DNA from: Veillonella infantium
GTDB taxonomy: Bacteria; Bacillota; Negativicutes; Veillonellales; Veillonellaceae
NCBI RefSeq assembly: GCF_002959895.1
Contig: NZ_PPDD01000009.1
Coordinates: forward strand, 62,001 to 126,000
DNA length: 64,000 nt
Direction: 5' to 3'
A model generated the notes under the pieces. It did no database searches and was not told the origin of the DNA. It saw only the letters and a list, made by a program, of their open reading frames with translations. Positions 5,050 through 57,399 of the stretch are shown one piece after another. Every line of letters starts with the position of its first letter. Positions within the stretch are counted from its first letter, which is position 1. A program made the position numbers and the translations under genes.

Positions 5050-7202
5050 TGGACGCTATACGAGGATTTGTATACCGAACTATATATGAGAATACACAAC
5101 GTACGTATTGCGTGTTTGTCCTTAAGGATTATAATGAGGAATACATTACTTGTACTGGTAAATTTGAGTCTCCTAAAGAGGGGGAAGATATCGAAGTTCG
5201 CGGCCGTTATGTAGAACATGAAAAATATGGTCGACAATTTGATGCTACTAGTGTAGAGAAGTTAAAACCTGACAATATGGGTGCTGCAAAGACCTACTTA
5301 TTGCACTTAGGGATTAAAGGTTTTGGTGAAAAGTCCGTAGAAAAGGTACTTGATTATTTTGGTATTCGTATATTAGAAATTTTACGACAGGAACGTCCTG
5401 AAGAAATTAAGCATGTTCCTGGTCTTCGAAAAAGTGTTAAGGATGAACTATTTAATACGTTACTTGGTGAAGGTATTTTGTCCGATTTAAATCACTTTTT
5501 TGAAAGTCATCATATTTCATCTAAATGGAGTCGAACGGTATACACTTATTATGGTGTTCAGTCTGTGGCTGTTATTGAAGATAATCCTTATACTTTGTTA
5601 CGTGTTGCACCAGATATGCTCTTTGGTACGGCTGATACACTGGCGGAACATTTAGGTATTACTGGCAGTGACTCTCGCCGTTTAGAGGCTGGTTTAGAAT
5701 GGATTTTACGCAGTTTAGATAATCAAGGTCATACTTGTTTGCCCGTAGATCAACTTATTGGCCGTTTAGATGATCTGTTACAAACTGATGCAGATGATAT
5801 TGCTAACTTTATTGAAGGTCTTTTGGAGCAAGGTGCTTTATATAGTACTTATTATGAAGATATCTTATATATTTACCCTCCAGAAATGTACGTGTCTGAA
5901 GTAGAAAGCGTTCATTATACAAAGGATTTTTTATTAGAGGCAGATCCAATTTCTCTAGATATTCCAAGTTTTATAGAGAAATTTGAAGCAGATAATCACA
6001 TTATATTTGGTGATGCCCAAAAAGAGGCTATACAGCTATCCTTCTTTGAAAAGTTTTCCCTCATAACCGGTGGTCCTGGTACGGGTAAAACGACGATTAT
6101 AAAGGCCCTAGTAAAAGGCTTTCAACTTGGTGGCTTGGGGCGCATTATTCTATGTGCACCTACGGGGCGTGCTGCAAAACGGCTTACTGAGGCGACTGAG
6201 TTTGAAGCAACAACGATACATCGCTTATTAGTGCCTGTTCAGGGCAGTGATTCTTATGATTTTACTAAGAATGAAGATGATCCTTTAGATATAGATGTTA
6301 TTATCATTGATGAAGCATCTATGCTCAATGTACGTTTATTCTATTCGTTAATGGCAGCTATTCCAAAGGAAGCTCATGTTATTATCGTAGGTGACGTTGA
6401 TCAATTGCCACCTATTGGAGCAGGCTTTGTATTAAAAGACTTACTCGATAGTGATTGTGTTCCTTATACACGACTTAATCAGATTTATCGGCAAAGTTCT
6501 GGTAACACTATTGTAGAAAGCGCTTATGCTATTAACCGTGGTGAAATGCCAAAACTTGATAGTCTAAGTGAAGAGTTTTCCTTTATACCTGTTAAGTCTT
6601 ACGATATGATGATGAAAGCTATCATAGATGTATATAAGCGAGAACAGGAGCATATTGAGGATGAGTTAGATATTCAAATTATTTCTCCTATGAGACGTGG
6701 TGAAGCTGGAAGTACACTCATTTCTCAGTATGTACAACAAGCAGTTAATCCTCCAGATAGTTTAAAAGGGGAAGCACGCGTTAATGGAATTACATACCGT
6801 GTAGGGGATAAAGTTATCCAAATCCTCAATGATTATGAGTTAGAAGTCTTCAATGGTGAAATTGGTGTAATTTATGCCATTACACGAACAGACATTTGCA
6901 TCCGATTTATCCATAAAGAGGTTCGTCTACCTATCGACGAAGCACATATGATTATGCCAGCTTATGCTATTACGGTTCATAAGAGCCAAGGTAGCGAGTA
7001 TGGTGTGGTTATCATTCCATTTGTTCCACGTTATGGTGGTATGTTGCAACGTAATTTGTTGTACACTGCTGTTACACGAGCTAAACGGAAGGTAATTATC
7101 GTTGGTACAACGAGCGCTATAGAACGTGCTGTACGTACTGTAAACGGTGATGAACGATATACATTGTTTAAAGAACGACTACAAGGGAGATGTGATTCGT
7201 AA
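5049..7202 (+). CDS. recD2: ATP-dependent DNA helicase RecD2
   Basis: RecD2 is a superfamily 1B 5'-3' helicase acting in DNA repair outside RecBCD. The 717 residues have the long N-terminal region typical of RecD2, with helix-hairpin-helix segments (GIKGFGEKSVEKVL, HVPGLRKSVKDEL). They are followed by Walker A GGPGTGKTTIIKAL near residue 340, Walker B VIIIDEASML near 417, VGDVDQLPPIGAG, and the C-terminal motif YAITVHKSQGSEY with TAVTRAK. The start overlaps the preceding stop, and the stop overlaps the comFC start. No recB or recC neighbour is present, which supports RecD2 over RecD. Confidence 0.95.
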   Translation: MDAIRGFVYRTIYENTQRTYCVFVLKDYNEEYITCTGKFESPKEGEDIEVRGRYVEHEKYGRQFDATSVEKLKPDNMGAAKTYLLHLGIKGFGEKSVEKVLDYFGIRILEILRQERPEEIKHVPGLRKSVKDELFNTLLGEGILSDLNHFFESHHISSKWSRTVYTYYGVQSVAVIEDNPYTLLRVAPDMLFGTADTLAEHLGITGSDSRRLEAGLEWILRSLDNQGHTCLPVDQLIGRLDDLLQTDADDIANFIEGLLEQGALYSTYYEDILYIYPPEMYVSEVESVHYTKDFLLEADPISLDIPSFIEKFEADNHIIFGDAQKEAIQLSFFEKFSLITGGPGTGKTTIIKALVKGFQLGGLGRIILCAPTGRAAKRLTEATEFEATTIHRLLVPVQGSDSYDFTKNEDDPLDIDVIIIDEASMLNVRLFYSLMAAIPKEAHVIIVGDVDQLPPIGAGFVLKDLLDSDCVPYTRLNQIYRQSSGNTIVESAYAINRGEMPKLDSLSEEFSFIPVKSYDMMMKAIIDVYKREQEHIEDELDIQIISPMRRGEAGSTLISQYVQQAVNPPDSLKGEARVNGITYRVGDKVIQILNDYELEVFNGEIGVIYAITRTDICIRFIHKEVRLPIDEAHMIMPAYAITVHKSQGSEYGVVIIPFVPRYGGMLQRNLLYTAVTRAKRKVIIVGTTSAIERAVRTVNGDERYTLFKERLQGRCDS

Positions 7203-7897
7203 TGAGTCTTTGGGATTTCCTATTTCCACCTGTATGTCCTCACTGTGGGGCCTCTGTAGCAACACAAGGGGATTGGTGTAAATCTTGTTTTACTGATCTA
7301 CTGCATATTCGTCATGTGCCAAACAAATTTCTACATTACGTAGAGGATGTATGTGTATTGGCTGAATACCGTGGTGGTTTAAAGTCTATAATTTACGATG
7401 TAAAATTTAACGAAAAAAAGGAGCAGTCCAAAGGGGCTGCTCCTTTTTTAGCATCGTACAACCTTTACATGAAATATGATGAGTTTCATATTGTTAATCG
7501 TAAGTGCCCTGTTATTTATGATTATATTATTCCTGTTCCGTCTAGCGAAAGGAAAAAAGCTAAGAGAGGATATAACCAAGTTGATTTATTTTTTATCAAG
7601 TGGGCTAAATCTCTACAAAATATAGATAATAAATATTTTGCTTGGTTAGACTGTATATACAAATTTGATACTTCTAATGATATGTGGGCGTTAACGAATA
7701 AGGAACGACATCAAAATATTGAGGAGGCCTTTGTCATTGGCGCTAACTATAAAGATATTGAATTAAAGGATAAGACAATACTTATCGTAGATGATATATA
7801 TACTACAGGGGCTACGATTGAAGCCGTCGCAAAGGTCATTAGAGCATATAAACCTAGTAAAATTGATGCTTTAACATTAGCTAGCGGTAGTTTTTAA
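7202..7897 (+). CDS. comFC: ComF-family phosphoribosyltransferase-like protein
   Basis: ComFC is a cytoplasmic protein needed for DNA uptake in naturally transformable bacteria. It combines a zinc finger with a type I phosphoribosyltransferase fold. The 231 residues show four cysteines (C12, C15, C26, C29) in PVCPHC and WCKSC, the segment PVPSSERKKAKRGYNQ, and the PRPP-binding loop TILIVDDIYTTGAT near residue 192. It overlaps the recD2 stop by one base. Codons in the middle (7413-7449) form a complete intrinsic-terminator-like hairpin, listed separately, which is very unusual inside a reading frame. The reading frame is nevertheless intact and of family length. Confidence 0.9.
   Translation: MSLWDFLFPPVCPHCGASVATQGDWCKSCFTDLLHIRHVPNKFLHYVEDVCVLAEYRGGLKSIIYDVKFNEKKEQSKGAAPFLASYNLYMKYDEFHIVNRKCPVIYDYIIPVPSSERKKAKRGYNQVDLFFIKWAKSLQNIDNKYFAWLDCIYKFDTSNDMWALTNKERHQNIEEAFVIGANYKDIELKDKTILIVDDIYTTGATIEAVAKVIRAYKPSKIDALTLASGSF
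7413..7449 (+). terminator. Intrinsic-terminator-like hairpin inside comFC
   Basis: Directly seen: GGAGCAGTCC (7420-7429) pairs with GGGCTGCTCC (7434-7443, one G-U pair) around an AAAG loop. It is preceded by seven A and followed by six T. This is the textbook shape of a rho-independent terminator, yet it lies within comFC codons for EKKEQSKGAAPF. Whether it terminates transcription is not known; attenuation of comFC is an inference. Confidence 0.6.
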
Positions 7898-7943: not shown

Positions 7944-8546
7944 CTAACCAAGAACATCGATAAATGCTTTTACTACATCTGGATCGAAAAGGGAGCCAGA
8001 TGCACTAAAGAGTTCTTCTTTAGCTTTAGCTTTAGTTTTTGCCCAAAATTCAGTAGAAGGATTCACTGTTGTATCGTAATAATCTGCTACAGCGATAATT
8101 CTAGCTCCTAATGGGATATTAGCACCACGTAAATGTTTAGGATAACCAGAGCCATCCCATTTTTCGTGGTGATAACGAATATAAGGCAAGATTTGTTGAC
8201 AACATGGGTAGTTTTCAATCATATTGGCACCACTCGCAGCATGTTGTTTATACTTGGACATTTCTTGCTTGTTAAGATATGGAGATTTTTGAATTAATGC
8301 ATTAGGTACCATTAAAAGCCCTACGTCATGAAGTAAAGCTGCGTGGCGAATTTGCTCAATTTCATTTAATGGTAAACCCATCTTAGCAGCAATACTAACT
8401 GCATAGTTTGAAACTTGGATAGAATGAGTGTATAGATGATAGCTCTTCATTTGTATCATTTGCAAGAGCTGAGCACTAATGGCTTCTAAACTGTCCTTCT
8501 CCAGTTCGTACAACCCTGATGGTTGCATTAATGATAACATAAACAT
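7944..8546 (-). CDS. Stand-alone HD-GYP domain protein with degenerate motifs
   Basis: HD-GYP proteins hydrolyse cyclic di-GMP at a di- or trinuclear metal centre. This 200-residue protein is almost only that domain. It has THSIQVSNYA, the HD pair in AALLHDVGL, YKQHAASG, and the signature HHEKWDGSGYP with IPLGARIIAVADYYD. Two positions deviate: HDIGK-type lysine is replaced by Leu (HDVGL), and the RPYR-like segment after VADxxD is replaced by TTVNPST. It lacks receiver or membrane domains. The start at 8546 is supported by AAGGGG six bases upstream. It may be an active phosphodiesterase with altered specificity or a binding protein; I cannot decide from sequence. Confidence 0.82.
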   Translation of the reverse strand: MFMLSLMQPSGLYELEKDSLEAISAQLLQMIQMKSYHLYTHSIQVSNYAVSIAAKMGLPLNEIEQIRHAALLHDVGLLMVPNALIQKSPYLNKQEMSKYKQHAASGANMIENYPCCQQILPYIRYHHEKWDGSGYPKHLRGANIPLGARIIAVADYYDTTVNPSTEFWAKTKAKAKEELFSASGSLFDPDVVKAFIDVLG

Positions 8547-8951: not shown

Positions 8952-8980
8952 TAGACATGAATTATGTTATTCTTTATAAT
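8952..8980 (+). promoter_or_regulatory. Promoter of the structured RNA gene
   Basis: TAGACA (8952-8957) and a perfect TATAAT (8975-8980) are separated by 17 bases. The expected start near 8986-8987 coincides with the 5' strand of the closing helix of the RNA, which supports both calls. Confidence 0.75.
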
Positions 8981-8985
8981 ACGTC

Positions 8986-9220
8986 TATACGGGTCTGTGG
9001 TTGAAAGTCGATGCCAGTCGCAGGCAAAACGATCCACATAAGCAACCCAAGGGGTTGTGAGCATGGTGCGGCTTAGGTGTAAGTCCTGCCGGTAAAACCG
9101 AGAGGAGTAGTAGTGGGGAGTCTCGGACTTATGAGCGAACCTTCCAGCAGGCGAGTGTGGGGGCAAAGACCAGGTCAGCCGTATACGGGCACATGAGGCT
9201 TTTCTCATGTGCTTTTTTCT
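8986..9220 (+). ncRNA. Structured non-coding RNA, probable raiA-motif RNA
   Basis: This GC-richer island has its own promoter and terminator and no good reading frame. The ends pair: TATACGG (8986-8992) with CCGTATA (9179-9185). Internal helices include CAACCC/GGGTTG (9043-9048/9052-9057), CCGAGA/TCTCGG (9098-9103/9121-9126) and TAAGTCC/GGACTTA (9080-9086/9125-9131). CATAAG (9037-9042) can pair with CTTATG (9128-9133) as an alternative. The raiA motif is a widespread Firmicute and actinobacterial RNA found near raiA (hpf) and comFC, and this RNA lies between comFC and hpf. Conserved-looking strings such as GTGTAAGTCC and GAGCGAACCTT agree with my memory of that family, but I could not run a covariance model. 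It is not a cobalamin riboswitch, RNase P RNA or tmRNA. Confidence 0.65.
9189..9218 (+). terminator. Terminator of the structured RNA gene
   Basis: GCACATGAG (9189-9197) pairs perfectly with CTCATGTGC (9204-9212) around GCTTTT and is followed by six T, then more T after one C. It follows the closing helix of the RNA by 3 bases. Confidence 0.9.
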
Positions 9221-9372: not shown

Positions 9373-9400
9373 TTGACATAATTATACTAAGTGATATACT
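9373..9400 (+). promoter_or_regulatory. Promoter of the amino acid ABC transporter operon
   Basis: TTGACA (9373-9378) and TATACT (9395-9400) are 16 bases apart, giving a leader of roughly 35 bases before the start at 9443. The 150 bases upstream hold no recognisable riboswitch. Confidence 0.7.
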
Positions 9401-9442: not shown

Positions 9443-10249
9443 ATGTTAAATAGGAAGTTAAAAAAATTAATCATTGGTGGTTGTATGTTAGTATTGGCTG
9501 GTACTGTAATTGGCGGTTGTGGAACTTCTACACAAACAACTTCTAATAAATTAATCGTTGGTACTAATGCCACATTTGTTCCATTTGAATTTAAAGATGA
9601 AAAAACTCAAGACTATACAGGCTTTGATATTGATCTTATTCGTGCCATCGGTAAGCGTATCAATAAAGATGTAGAGCTTAAGAATGTTGCCTTTGATGCT
9701 CTAATTCCAGCGTTAAATACACATGATATTGATGTAGCAGCATCTGGTATGACTATTACAAAAGCTAGAAGTGAAAAGGTGTTATTCTCTTCTCCATATT
9801 ATGAAAATGCACTTGCTGTAGTATATAAAGATGGTGCCAATATTACATCCCTTGATGATCTTAAAGGTAAAAAGATTGCTGCTCAATTAGGTACAACTGG
9901 TGCTGATTTAGCTCATAAAATTGAAGGTACTACTGTAAAAGAGTTTGACCATAGTAATGAAGCTTTGTTAGAATTACAAAATGGCGGTGCTGATGCAACT
10001 GTAATTGACTTGCCGGTAGCTCAATTTTATAGTACTAAACATCCAGACCAACATATTAAATTTATGGCATATCCAAATACGAAAGAATATTTGGGCTTAG
10101 CAATCAATAAAGACAACAAAGACTTGCAAGAACAAATTAATAAAGCAATCGCCGATATGAAGGCCGATGGTGAATTTAATACATTATATAAAAAATGGTT
10201 TAATGTAGATGCACCAGCTGATATGCCAGTAGTGTTAGAATTTAAATAA
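9443..10249 (+). CDS. Polar amino acid ABC transporter, substrate-binding lipoprotein
   Basis: This is the extracytoplasmic receptor of an amino acid importer. The 268 residues begin with a lipoprotein signal: MLNRKLKKL, a hydrophobic stretch, and a lipobox ending in VIGGC, so the mature Cys would be lipid-modified. The bacterial solute-binding family 3 fold is shown by LIVGTNATFVPFEFKD, GFDIDLIRAIGKR, FDALIPALN and SGMTITKARSEKV, whose Arg typically binds the ligand carboxylate. ATG 9443 is chosen because GAGGA lies at 9431-9435; an upstream GTG at 9425 would disrupt the signal peptide. The exact amino acid cannot be read from sequence; glutamine, basic amino acids or cystine are possible. 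Confidence 0.9.
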   Translation: MLNRKLKKLIIGGCMLVLAGTVIGGCGTSTQTTSNKLIVGTNATFVPFEFKDEKTQDYTGFDIDLIRAIGKRINKDVELKNVAFDALIPALNTHDIDVAASGMTITKARSEKVLFSSPYYENALAVVYKDGANITSLDDLKGKKIAAQLGTTGADLAHKIEGTTVKEFDHSNEALLELQNGGADATVIDLPVAQFYSTKHPDQHIKFMAYPNTKEYLGLAINKDNKDLQEQINKAIADMKADGEFNTLYKKWFNVDAPADMPVVLEFK

Positions 10250-10260
10250 TAGGAGAGATC

Positions 10261-10917
10261 ATGAGTTTTAATTGGGGGTTAATTGCGGATAATTTACCGC
10301 TTTTATTACAAGGTGCACTTGTAACCGTTGAAATTACAGCCATGTCTGTAGGCTGTGGTTTCTTTATCGGTCTATTAGTAGCCATAGCAAATTTATCTAA
10401 ATTTACTGTAGTTAGATTATTAGCAAAATGCTATGTAGATATCATTCGTGGTACACCACTATTGGTACAAATCTTCTTGATTTACTTCGCATTGCCAATG
10501 ATTACTGGACAACGTATTGATCCATTTATTGCTGCTGTTACTGCATGTAGTATTAACTCTGGTGCTTATGTATCTGAAATCTTCCGTGCTGGCATTCAGT
10601 CTATTGATAAAGGTCAAATGGAAGCGGGTCGATCTCTTGGTTTGACTTGGGGCCAAACTATGCGTTATATCATCATGCCGCAAGCTTTCAAAGCAATTAT
10701 TCCACCATTGGGTAATGAGTTTATTGCTATGTTGAAAGACTCCTCATTGGTTTCTGTAATTGGTTTCGAAGAATTGACACGCCGTGGTCAACTAATCATT
10801 GCCAAAACATATGCATCATTTGAAATTTGGGGGACAGTTGCTGTTATCTACCTTATTATGACAGTAACAATTTCACAATTGGTTGGTTACCTTGAAAGGA
10901 AATATAGCATTAAATGA
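10261..10917 (+). CDS. Amino acid ABC transporter permease
   Basis: This 218-residue membrane protein belongs to the HisM/GlnP-type permease family. It opens with [20 protein letters not shown] and has several hydrophobic segments. The cytoplasmic EAA-type loop, which contacts the ATPase, reads [20 protein letters not shown] near residue 120. It lies 11 bases after the receptor gene, and its end overlaps the ATPase start by four bases. With only one permease gene the transporter core would be a homodimer. Substrate is unknown. Confidence 0.93.
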
Positions 10918-11633
10918 TTAAGTTAGAAAATGTACATAAATCCTTTGGTAAAAATGAAGTATTAAAGGGCATAGATTTACATATCGAAAAAGGTCAAGTT
11001 GTAGTTATTATTGGTCCATCAGGTTCTGGTAAAAGTACAGTATTGCGTACTATGAATTACTTAGAAGAGCCTACATCTGGTAAGGTCATTGTAGATGGTA
11101 TGGATCTTTCAGATAAATCTAAACTTAATGAAGTCCGTACGGAAGTAGGAATGGTATTCCAAAACTTTAATCTTTTCCCACACATGACTGTAATGGAAAA
11201 TCTGACCTTAGCACAAACTAAGGTCCGCAAAACATCTAGTGATGAGGCTAAAAAAATTGGTCAAATTTTATTAGATCGAGTAGGTTTGAAAGATAAAGCA
11301 AATGCTTATCCTGACTCTTTATCTGGTGGTCAAAAGCAACGTGTTGCTATAGCTCGTGCTTTAGCAATGAAACCAAAGGTTATGCTCTTTGATGAGCCTA
11401 CCTCTGCATTGGATCCAGAAATGGTTCGCGAAGTTCTGGATGTAATGAAGTCTCTAGCCGAAGAAGGCATGACGATGGTTATTGTTACTCACGAAATGGG
11501 CTTTGCAAAAGAGGTTGCAGACCGAGTATTATTTGTAGATGGTGGATTAATTCTTGAAGATGATACTCCTGAAAAAGTATTTGATGCACCAACAAATGAT
11601 AGAACAAAATTGTTCTTATCGAAAATTTTATAA
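10914..11633 (+). CDS. Amino acid ABC transporter ATP-binding protein (GlnQ/HisP type)
   Basis: This 239-residue ATPase would power the importer encoded upstream. It shows Walker [10 protein letters not shown] near residue 38, the Q loop [13 protein letters not shown], the signature [15 protein letters not shown], Walker [15 protein letters not shown] and the switch His in IVTHEMGF. These are the GlnQ/HisP-type features. The start overlaps the permease end (ATGA). A terminator follows at 11654-11691, so the operon has three genes: receptor, permease, ATPase. Confidence 0.95.
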
Positions 11634-12158: not shown

Positions 12159-12356
12159 ATGTTAGGTAAAGTAAAATGGTTTAGCGCAGAAAAAGGTTAT
12201 GGTTTTATTGAACGCGAAGACGGTAGCGATGTATTCGTACATTACTCTGCGATCCAAGACGAAGGTTTCAAATCTTTGACAGAAGGTCAAAATGTAGAGT
12301 TTGATATCGTTGATGGTAACCGTGGCCCTCAAGCTGCTAACGTTGTAAAAGCGTAA
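12159..12356 (+). CDS. Cold-shock protein (CspA family)
   Basis: Csp proteins are small single-domain RNA chaperones that keep mRNA unstructured, often induced by cold. The 65 residues form one cold-shock domain: [16 protein letters not shown] contains RNP1 (KGYGFIE) and VFVHYS contains RNP2. It is monocistronic, with its own promoter, AGGAGG eight bases before the ATG, and a terminator 40 bases after the stop. Codon use is strongly biased (cgt, ggt, gaa), consistent with high expression. Confidence 0.96.
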
Positions 12357-12595: not shown

Positions 12596-13123
12596 ATGAA
12601 AGTAGCAATCAGAGGTAAAAACATTGAAGTGACAGATGCTTTAAGAGCATACATCGAAAAGAGATTGAGCAAATTAACTCGTTACTTCGATGATGAGTTA
12701 GATGCACAAGCGGTTTTATCCGTTGTAAAAGATAAATCTACTGTTGAACTTACATGCTTCGTTAATAAAATTGTTCTTCGTGGTGTAGAAACAAACGATG
12801 ATATGTATGCTGCTATTGATTTGGTAATAGACAAAATCGTACGTCAAATTCACAAACATAAAACTCGTTTAGCTAAACGCTTTAAAAAACAAGAGGCTTT
12901 CCATCCAGAAGCTTTAGCGGCTCCTGTAGAAGAAGAAGCTATCGAAGTTGTAAAACGCAAACGCTTTGCAGTGCGTCCTATGGATGTAGAAGAAGCTATT
13001 TTACAAATGAATCTTATTGGTCATGACTTCTTTATGTTCTTCAATGCTGAAACAGAAGCAATGAATGTAGTATATCGTAGACATGATGGATTCTATGGCT
13101 TGATCGAGCCAGAATTACAATAA
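12596..13123 (+). CDS. hpf: Ribosome hibernation promoting factor, long form
   Basis: Long HPF dimerises 70S ribosomes into inactive 100S particles when growth slows. The 175 residues have the N-terminal RaiA/HPF domain (about 1-100; KNIEVTDALRAYIEKRLSKL, ACVDLVIDKIVRQIHKHK-like helix) and the C-terminal dimerisation domain (about 115-175; KRFAVRPMDVEEAILQMNL, GHDFFMFFN). The latter marks the long form of Firmicutes. AAAGGGTG lies seven bases before the ATG. hpf stands upstream of secA and prfB, the classic order, with the raiA-like RNA and comFC further upstream. Confidence 0.95.
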   Translation: MKVAIRGKNIEVTDALRAYIEKRLSKLTRYFDDELDAQAVLSVVKDKSTVELTCFVNKIVLRGVETNDDMYAAIDLVIDKIVRQIHKHKTRLAKRFKKQEAFHPEALAAPVEEEAIEVVKRKRFAVRPMDVEEAILQMNLIGHDFFMFFNAETEAMNVVYRRHDGFYGLIEPELQ

Positions 13124-37874: not shown

Positions 37875-37950
37875 GGCCCCGTGGTGTAGCGGTTAACATG
37901 TCGCCCTGTCACGGCGAAGATCGTCAGTTCAAATCTGATCGGGGTCGCCA
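37875..37950 (+). tRNA. tRNA-Asp (GTC)
   Basis: 76 bases with acceptor GGCCCCG/CGGGGTC, discriminator G and encoded CCA. The anticodon stem TCGCC/GGCGA encloses CTGTCAC, giving anticodon GTC. Confidence 0.96.
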
Positions 37951-37955
37951 TTCAT

Positions 37956-38031
<76 letters not shown>

Positions 38032-38038
38032 TGTACAT

Positions 38039-38113
38039 GCGGGAATAGCTCAGCGGTAGAGCACCGCCTTGCCAAGGCGGGGGTCGCGAGTTCGAATCTC
38101 GTTTCCCGCTCCA
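38039..38113 (+). tRNA. tRNA-Gly (GCC)
   Basis: 75 bases with acceptor GCGGGAA/TTCCCGC, anticodon stem CCGCC/GGCGG and encoded CCA. Loop TTGCCAA gives anticodon GCC. Confidence 0.96.
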
Positions 38114-38122
38114 ATTTTATAT

Positions 38123-38197
<75 letters not shown>

Positions 38198-38211
38198 CAA
38201 TCGTTACCCAT

Positions 38212-38300
38212 GCCGGGGTGGCGGAACAGGCAGACGCAACGGACTTAAAATCCGTCGGTTGGAAACAACCGTACCGGTTCGATTCCGGTCCTCGGCACCA
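38212..38300 (+). tRNA. tRNA-Leu (TAA)
   Basis: 89 bases, a class II tRNA with a long variable arm (CGGTTGGAAACAACCG). Acceptor GCCGGGG/CCTCGGC, anticodon stem ACGGA/TCCGT and encoded CCA. Loop CTTAAAA gives anticodon TAA. Confidence 0.96.
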
Positions 38301-57290: not shown

Positions 57291-57300
57291 ATTTCTGTAA

Positions 57301-57399
57301 CTCATCAAGAGTAGTGGAGGGATAGGCCCTATGAAGCTACAGCAACCATTCCAAGAGGAAAAGGTGCTAATTCCTATGACAAATGTCGTTAGATGGGAG
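57301..57399 (+). promoter_or_regulatory. SAM-I riboswitch (S-box) aptamer
   Basis: The core contains the S-box conserved strings AGTGGAGGGA, GGCCCTATGAAGC, GCAACC and AAGGTGCTAATTCC. The P1 helix is CTCATC (57301-57306) with GATGGG (57393-57398). S-boxes turn off methionine and SAM genes when SAM is high; here the target is metK, with a terminator right after the aptamer. Confidence 0.95.

Follow-up and report, generated by a model that had tools for sequence, protein, structure and literature searches.

What does the raiA RNA do in bacteria that have neither GGDEF enzymes nor Spo0A? The question is raised by a 64,000-nucleotide stretch of Veillonella infantium DNA (contig NZ_PPDD01000009.1; hereafter the window), in which a first-pass annotation had placed an independent structured RNA gene of ~230 nt, probably raiA RNA, at 8986-9220 on the plus strand. 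The raiA family and its fold have been published, including cryo-EM structures (PMC11751092, PMC12286853), and ModT of C. difficile is described as an abundant, trans-acting RNA with a growth-transition phenotype and DMS evidence for protein contact (PMC11706538). Deletion of modT raises c-di-GMP and lowers sporulation (PMC11706538). The description of these RNAs as functionally unknown, given in the first-pass annotation, is therefore partly outdated with regard to ModT, which is trans-acting and abundant, whereas it still holds for the biochemical activity. The family, fold, trans action, abundance and phenotypes being already published, what is new here is the host context of the RNA, the covariation of pk-2 in this order and a short form of the RNA in Clostridia.

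Identity and copy number of the RNA gene

A covariance scan of the whole window (cmscan against Rfam 15) matched RF03072 (raiA) with 198 bits (E 7.7e-51) over the complete model (1-209 of 209), which is ~100 bits above the curated cut-off (gathering score 101.3 bits). Together with the promoter and terminator described below, this match bears out the proposed independent RNA gene and its family assignment: the segment is a genuine raiA/ModT RNA gene and an ordinary full-length family member (Table 1). The window's genome contains one copy, and exactly one match above the cut-off was identified in 59 of the 60 genomes searched from its own genus, family and order (window's included). The RNA was not found in G054, the sole miss, a genome that is 75% complete.

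Table 1. Coordinates of the raiA RNA, its structural elements and the neighbouring features in the window
Feature	Position	Strand	Details
comFC-like gene	7202-7897	+	Pribosyltran and DZR_2; TIGR00201 below its cut-off
HD-GYP-like protein, divergent from RNA	7944-8546	-	PF13487 (HD_5 domain), 126.5 bits
Predicted RNA promoter	8952-8980	+	-35 TAGACA 8952-8957, 17-nt spacer, -10 TATAAT 8975-8980; 11/12 match
raiA (ModT) RNA, RF03072, full length	8984-9187	+	cmscan 198 bits; fold covariation over 57 sequences
P1, 5' strand	8986-9002	+	P1a 8986-8992, P1b 8995-8997, P1c 8998-9002; partner 9168-9185
GAAA (20-23, structure-paper numbering)	9003-9006	+	5' part of discontinuous GNRA-like turn with A183 (9166)
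P3	9007-9033	+	P3a 9007-9010/9030-9033, P3b 9013-9015/9023-9025, A-rich loop 9026-9029; 100% of cells paired
P3 loop, pk-1 5' half	9016-9022	+	7 bp with 9067-9073; 96.4% paired (56 distinct rows)
P4, 5' strand CCAC	9034-9037	+	Partner GUGG 9157-9160; invariant
A57/A58 (structure-paper numbering)	9040-9041	+	Unpaired adenosines; letters present
P5 hairpin, variable	9043-9057	+	Both-side changes in 6/6 pairs
pk-2 5' half UG	9064-9065	+	Partner CA 9164-9165; 98.2% paired
pk-1 3' half UGCGGCU	9067-9073	+	
P6-P7-P8 domain	9085-9151	+	P6 9085-9089/9147-9151, P7 9090-9100, P8 9104-9144; absent from mini-raiA
Predicted intrinsic terminator	9187-9220	+	Hairpin 9187-9214 and U-run; hairpin z -6.6
Separate predicted transporter-operon promoter	9373-9400	+	TTGACA-16-TATACT; 11/12 match
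Polar amino-acid ABC transporter	9443-11633	+	Solute-binding protein, permease, ATPase
Small cold-shock-type protein gene	12159-12356	+	ORF; csp query matches same place in relatives
Long-form hibernation-promoting factor (hpf, raiA protein)	12596-13123	+	PF02482 and PF16321

Fold, pseudoknots and covariation

The closing helix that had been proposed for both ends is real and corresponds to P1, whereas the minimum-free-energy fold of the single sequence (8987-9187) is unexceptional (z -1.1; 24 of 200 shuffles are equally stable). This rules out the folding energy as a proof of structure, and it is thus comparison that identifies a structured RNA. The published helices, pk-1 and pk-2 were drawn on aligned full-length sequences, 57 of 74 being used after near-duplicates had been dropped by eye; the helix placement is our own, taken from the text of the structure paper, and the 3' half of one locus (L097, genome G302) was entered as gaps in the covariation count. 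In these 57 sequences, 96.2% of the cells in the published fold are paired, compared to 84.1% in shuffles and 33-43% when the fold is slid along the alignment. Two-sided changes occur in 417 cells versus 121 in shuffles, the covariation score is 0.364 versus 0.145, and none of 500 shuffles reaches any of these measures. P1, P3, P4, P5, P6, P7 and P8 have 81-100% of their cells paired, and most of the variable helices contain two-sided changes; P4 never varies and consequently provides no evidence either way.

The outer position of pk-1 is unpaired in 11 rows, and one genome of the same genus carries a compensatory change from U-G to A-U. The two base pairs of pk-2, which sits one nucleotide before pk-1, change from G-C to A-U in 12 sequences and from U-A to C-G in three, a covariation that appears to be newly described for this order. 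Numbering from 8984 reproduces the C. acetobutylicum structure numbering, save a one-nucleotide offset in the pk-loop, and all unpaired adenosines of the structure paper are A in the window. A22, A44, A45, A57 and A58 are invariant in the 57 sequences and A183 is nearly so; position 21, which is the N in the GNRA turn, varies, as do 43 and 46. An E-loop in P8 is reported for 20% of raiA sequences, and the letters AGUA/GAA, which may form one, are present.

The first-pass annotation had also proposed a competing pairing to GGACTTATG and suggested a check for covariation. A helix between CATAAG (9037-9042) and CTTATG (9128-9133) is possible, but over the whole family 59.7% of cells are paired in this arrangement, compared to 59.3% in shuffles, and no covariation was detected. 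The alternative would furthermore bury A57 and A58, which are extruded into the minor groove of pk-1 in the solved C. acetobutylicum raiA structure. The competing pairing around GGACTTATG was rejected as no better than shuffles, and we take the complementarity to be a coincidence.

Promoter, terminator and predicted transcript

The RNA promoter is conserved, with at least nine of 12 positions matching in 57 of 59 order-wide loci compared to 20% of shuffles. All 28 loci of the window's family (f1) have both a conserved promoter and a terminator after the RNA. The terminator is also present in 13 of 16 loci of family f4 and in 0.7% of shuffles; none was found in the 15 loci of families f2 and f3, where the 3' end of the RNA must form otherwise. 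The predicted promoter and terminator delimit a transcript from ~8987 to ~9217, in agreement with the proposed length of ~230 nt, and the promoter, strong terminator and separate transcription unit of the first-pass annotation are all supported. Promoter and terminator support the reading of the RNA as a separate transcript, contrary to its cis-regulatory label in Rfam, and the one terminator right after P1 probably yields one isoform here.

T-box leaders scored over threshold downstream of the RNA in four of the nine scanned f2/f3 loci (15 available). They start ~10-55 nt after the RNA (L004, 1272-1487; L061, 9003-9213; L059, 8969-9177; L065, 9285-9491), and no terminator was detected where one was looked for between the RNA and the T-box leader in two families.

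Genomic neighbourhood

The gene order in the window is recD2, comFC, the HD-GYP-like gene (minus strand), raiA RNA, solute-binding protein, permease, ATPase, a putative cold-shock gene (csp), hpf and a putative secA, the names csp and secA being assigned from sequence. comFC, the usual upstream neighbour, and raiA/hpf, the usual downstream one, are thus both present and not adjacent to the RNA. The first-pass annotation correctly placed the RNA between them but did not list the intervening HD-GYP-like and cold-shock genes. Its proposal that the transporter had been inserted is doubtful, as a family-3 solute-binding gene also lies 3' of the RNA in distant families (Pfam-confirmed for two, G084 and G281). 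Periplasmic-binding-protein genes are described in a review as a usual downstream neighbour of raiA (PMC11477304).

Within f1 (28 genomes, window included), the HD-GYP-like gene is located upstream of the RNA in 27 genomes and the solute-binding gene downstream, likewise in 27. In 23 of the genomes hpf lies 2.8-6.1 kb 3' of the RNA; in four of the five misses the contig or stretch ends first. One genome (G004) has lost the comFC/HD-GYP side. All four f3 genomes keep comFC and the HD-GYP-like gene and contain a cysE/cysS-type operon downstream, and cysS follows the RNA in most f2 loci, with gene names putatively assigned from sequence. The neighbours in f4 are unrelated, and in family f14 comFC, raiA RNA and hpf are directly adjacent in two of three sampled genomes. 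In this comparison the RNA moves as a unit, and its neighbours do not define it.

A mobile origin was rejected: no phage match was obtained, and the two 'plasmid' hits come from records 2.6 and 11.8 Mb in size, at 74-78% identity. In one genome (G046), an RNase P RNA gene (rnpB) is located ~100 nt upstream of the raiA RNA (L014, 1055-1398). The window also contains a SAM riboswitch (RF00162, 81 bits; 57299-57399) and a cluster of five tRNA genes (37875-38297).

The HD-GYP-like neighbour

The HD-GYP-like neighbour of the RNA is the single HD_5 protein of the window's genome. The closest solved relative is 5z7c, a 3'3'-cGAMP phosphodiesterase, and the protein is 93-100% identical within the genus (loci compared). 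The motif LHD[VLI]GL was identified in 22 of 22 distinct neighbours, with leucine in place of the lysine of HDIGK, the motif of typical HD-GYP members. The genome that encodes this sole HD-GYP-like protein has no GGDEF or EAL domains. The HD phosphatase from a V. parvula transposon screen was considered as a counterpart and rejected, since it is YqeK in the obg cluster (PMC7549365).

Retention of raiA RNA without GGDEF enzymes or Spo0A

GGDEF domains (PF00990) are encoded in 13 of the 60 order genomes and in none of the 14 genomes of the genus, EAL domains in 11 of 60, and the Spo0A C-terminal domain was detected in 0 of 60. The raiA RNA is present in all 47 GGDEF-less genomes of the order, and the sole raiA-less genome has 24 GGDEF matches. 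In a phylum sample of 249 genomes (at least 90% complete), for which stricter raiA filters make all raiA counts lower bounds, the RNA was identified in at least 24 genomes (17 over the cut-off), comprising at least five of 16 GGDEF-less and at least 19 of 233 GGDEF-bearing genomes. The five GGDEF-less genomes belong to two lineages, the second being f14 (three of three sampled), and are therefore to be read as retention rather than as a statistical association.

As the RNA is retained without GGDEF and without Spo0A, neither c-di-GMP nor sporulation can be an obligatory output of it. The presence of the RNA in many non-spore-formers has been noted before (PMC11706538); its retention without GGDEF enzymes appears, on genome comparison, to be new. 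Proteins outside PF00990 may supply c-di-GMP in this lineage.

A short raiA variant in one order of Clostridia

Of the 24 matches in the phylum sample, seven stay below the cut-off (42-59 bits) although they cover both ends of the model. A pattern scan of named genomes identified 13 loci of this short form, which we term mini-raiA, in Thermosediminibacter, Tepidanaerobacter, Fervidicola, Thermovorax and MAGs; the order is Thermosediminibacterales for the one name that was looked up. Among the 22 genomes of the order of G093 (Clostridia), 19 contain an RF03072 match at E ≤0.001, none reaches the Rfam cut-off and none contains full-length raiA. A model built from 15 mini-raiA sequences recovers the same 19 genomes, largely by construction, because the sequences are from that order.

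Mini-raiA is 110-121 nt long (loci L105-L124) and keeps P1b/c, GAAA 20-23, P3a, P3b, A44, A45 and the GG of 190-191, with an adenosine at the A183 position in 15 of 15 sequences. It is devoid of CCACGUAA, UUAGAAGUAAG, P6-P8 and GGGGGCAA and has little left of the pk-loop and J4-1c; of the fold, the P1-P3 half alone is kept. We do not claim pk-1 for mini-raiA, as the best complement averages 5.8 bp versus 5.3 bp in shuffles (means, 15 sequences); a GCCG/CGGC element recurs. A -10-like TATAAT is located immediately upstream of most copies, and all 20 loci (15 distinct RNAs) have a treble-clef zinc-finger gene that starts 36-40 nt 3' of the RNA. In L103 this gene is found 34 nt downstream of full-length raiA, which argues that mini-raiA descends from raiA by internal loss. 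Mini-raiA could instead be a leader of the zinc-finger gene. We tentatively consider, at somewhat less than even chances, that the conserved raiA function is carried by the P1-P3 core, independent of c-di-GMP and sporulation, and that mini-raiA replaced the full-length RNA in this order. Mini-raiA appears to be new: no earlier report was found in the literature searched, and Soares et al. 2024 (PNAS), known via citing papers, may describe a short variant.

Proposed function and alternative explanations

The locus shares with ModT/raiA of C. difficile and C. acetobutylicum (PDB 9CXF, 9ELY) the full-length match, P1-P8, the 7-bp pk-1 and 2-bp pk-2 separated by a single G, the conserved unpaired adenosines, a housekeeping-type promoter and a nearby comFC. 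In contrast, its host lineage lacks GGDEF enzymes and Spo0A, one terminator stands right after P1, the HD-GYP-like gene separates comFC from the RNA, and hpf is 3.4 kb off, behind the transporter and cold-shock genes. Like 6S, SRP and tmRNA-type housekeeping RNAs, a comparison made in PMC11706538, the RNA is single copy, free-standing, order-wide and equipped with a strong promoter, although its fold is unrelated.

A free-standing, trans-acting raiA/ModT RNA with a general role in leaving exponential growth is the explanation that we favour and regard as reasonably probable. A ~230-nt RNA would start at a strong housekeeping-type promoter as a transcription unit of its own, end at the intrinsic terminator and fold into a compact P1-P8 structure with two pseudoknots. 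It would most likely act in trans as a stable, abundant, protein-binding RNA and help the cell to leave exponential growth on time. The clostridial effects on c-di-GMP and sporulation would be downstream consequences, because the present lineage keeps the RNA without GGDEF enzymes and Spo0A. We infer expression here, protein binding and a core role that is general rather than tied to c-di-GMP; a role specific to the neighbouring genes in this lineage may exist. ModT in clostridia peaks in exponential growth (PMC11706538), and the stationary-phase northern blot suggested in the first-pass annotation may therefore address the wrong phase. A periodontitis metatranscriptome based on Rfam 12.2 (PMC7160235) does not mention raiA in the part covered and hence offers no expression evidence, and, judged by titles and abstract openings, no relevant paper was found that links Veillonella to HD-GYP, a diguanylate cyclase or noncoding RNA, or that deals with raiA in these hosts.

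The Rfam type label ('Cis-reg; riboswitch'), the ornate, conserved fold and the solute-binding gene downstream in the family and in some distant families would fit a cis-acting riboswitch or leader controlling the amino-acid transporter. We consider this highly improbable: the RNA is terminated before the next gene throughout the family, a separate promoter-like site stands ~40 nt upstream of the transporter ATG, so that no cis expression platform is needed, and other genes follow the RNA in f2, f3 and f4. An aptamer joined to the expression platform of the next gene, as in riboswitches, was not found, and complementation in trans is reported in C. difficile (PMC11706538). A regulator dedicated to c-di-GMP, acting on or with the divergent HD-GYP-like protein, would be consistent with the raised c-di-GMP of the modT mutant and with the position of the genome's only HD-GYP-like gene beside the RNA in nearly all f1 and all four f3 genomes. 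It is improbable given that GGDEF is absent from 14 of 14 genus and 47 of 60 order genomes and EAL from 49 of 60, that the HD_5 protein of f4 is encoded away from the RNA, and that the lysine of the usual HDIGK motif is replaced by leucine in all 22 distinct neighbours.

Somewhat less improbable, albeit still unlikely, is a ribozyme or RNA-processing cofactor acting on tRNA, 5S or other RNAs. The rigidity and high conservation of the fold, in which some unpaired positions never change, the raised tRNA and 5S levels of the modT mutant (PMC11706538) and the view of the cryo-EM authors that a ribozyme is possible (PMC11751092) all point in this direction, as does rnpB upstream of the RNA, which is confined to one genome. 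However, no cleavage is reported in the parts of the raiA/ModT papers covered, and mini-raiA has persisted order-wide despite the loss of most conserved joining regions, a pattern that suits a binding core no less than a large active site.

Among bacterial RNAs whose biochemical activity has yet to be found, raiA/ModT is one of the most conserved, and its persistence in a lineage with no detectable GGDEF enzyme or Spo0A uncouples its basic role from c-di-GMP and sporulation, the two outputs that have been studied. Working genetics in Veillonella parvula (PMC7549365), which to judge by gene order is probably close to the present genome, make the question of this basic role directly testable, and for structural studies and pull-downs mini-raiA would offer a minimal version made by nature.
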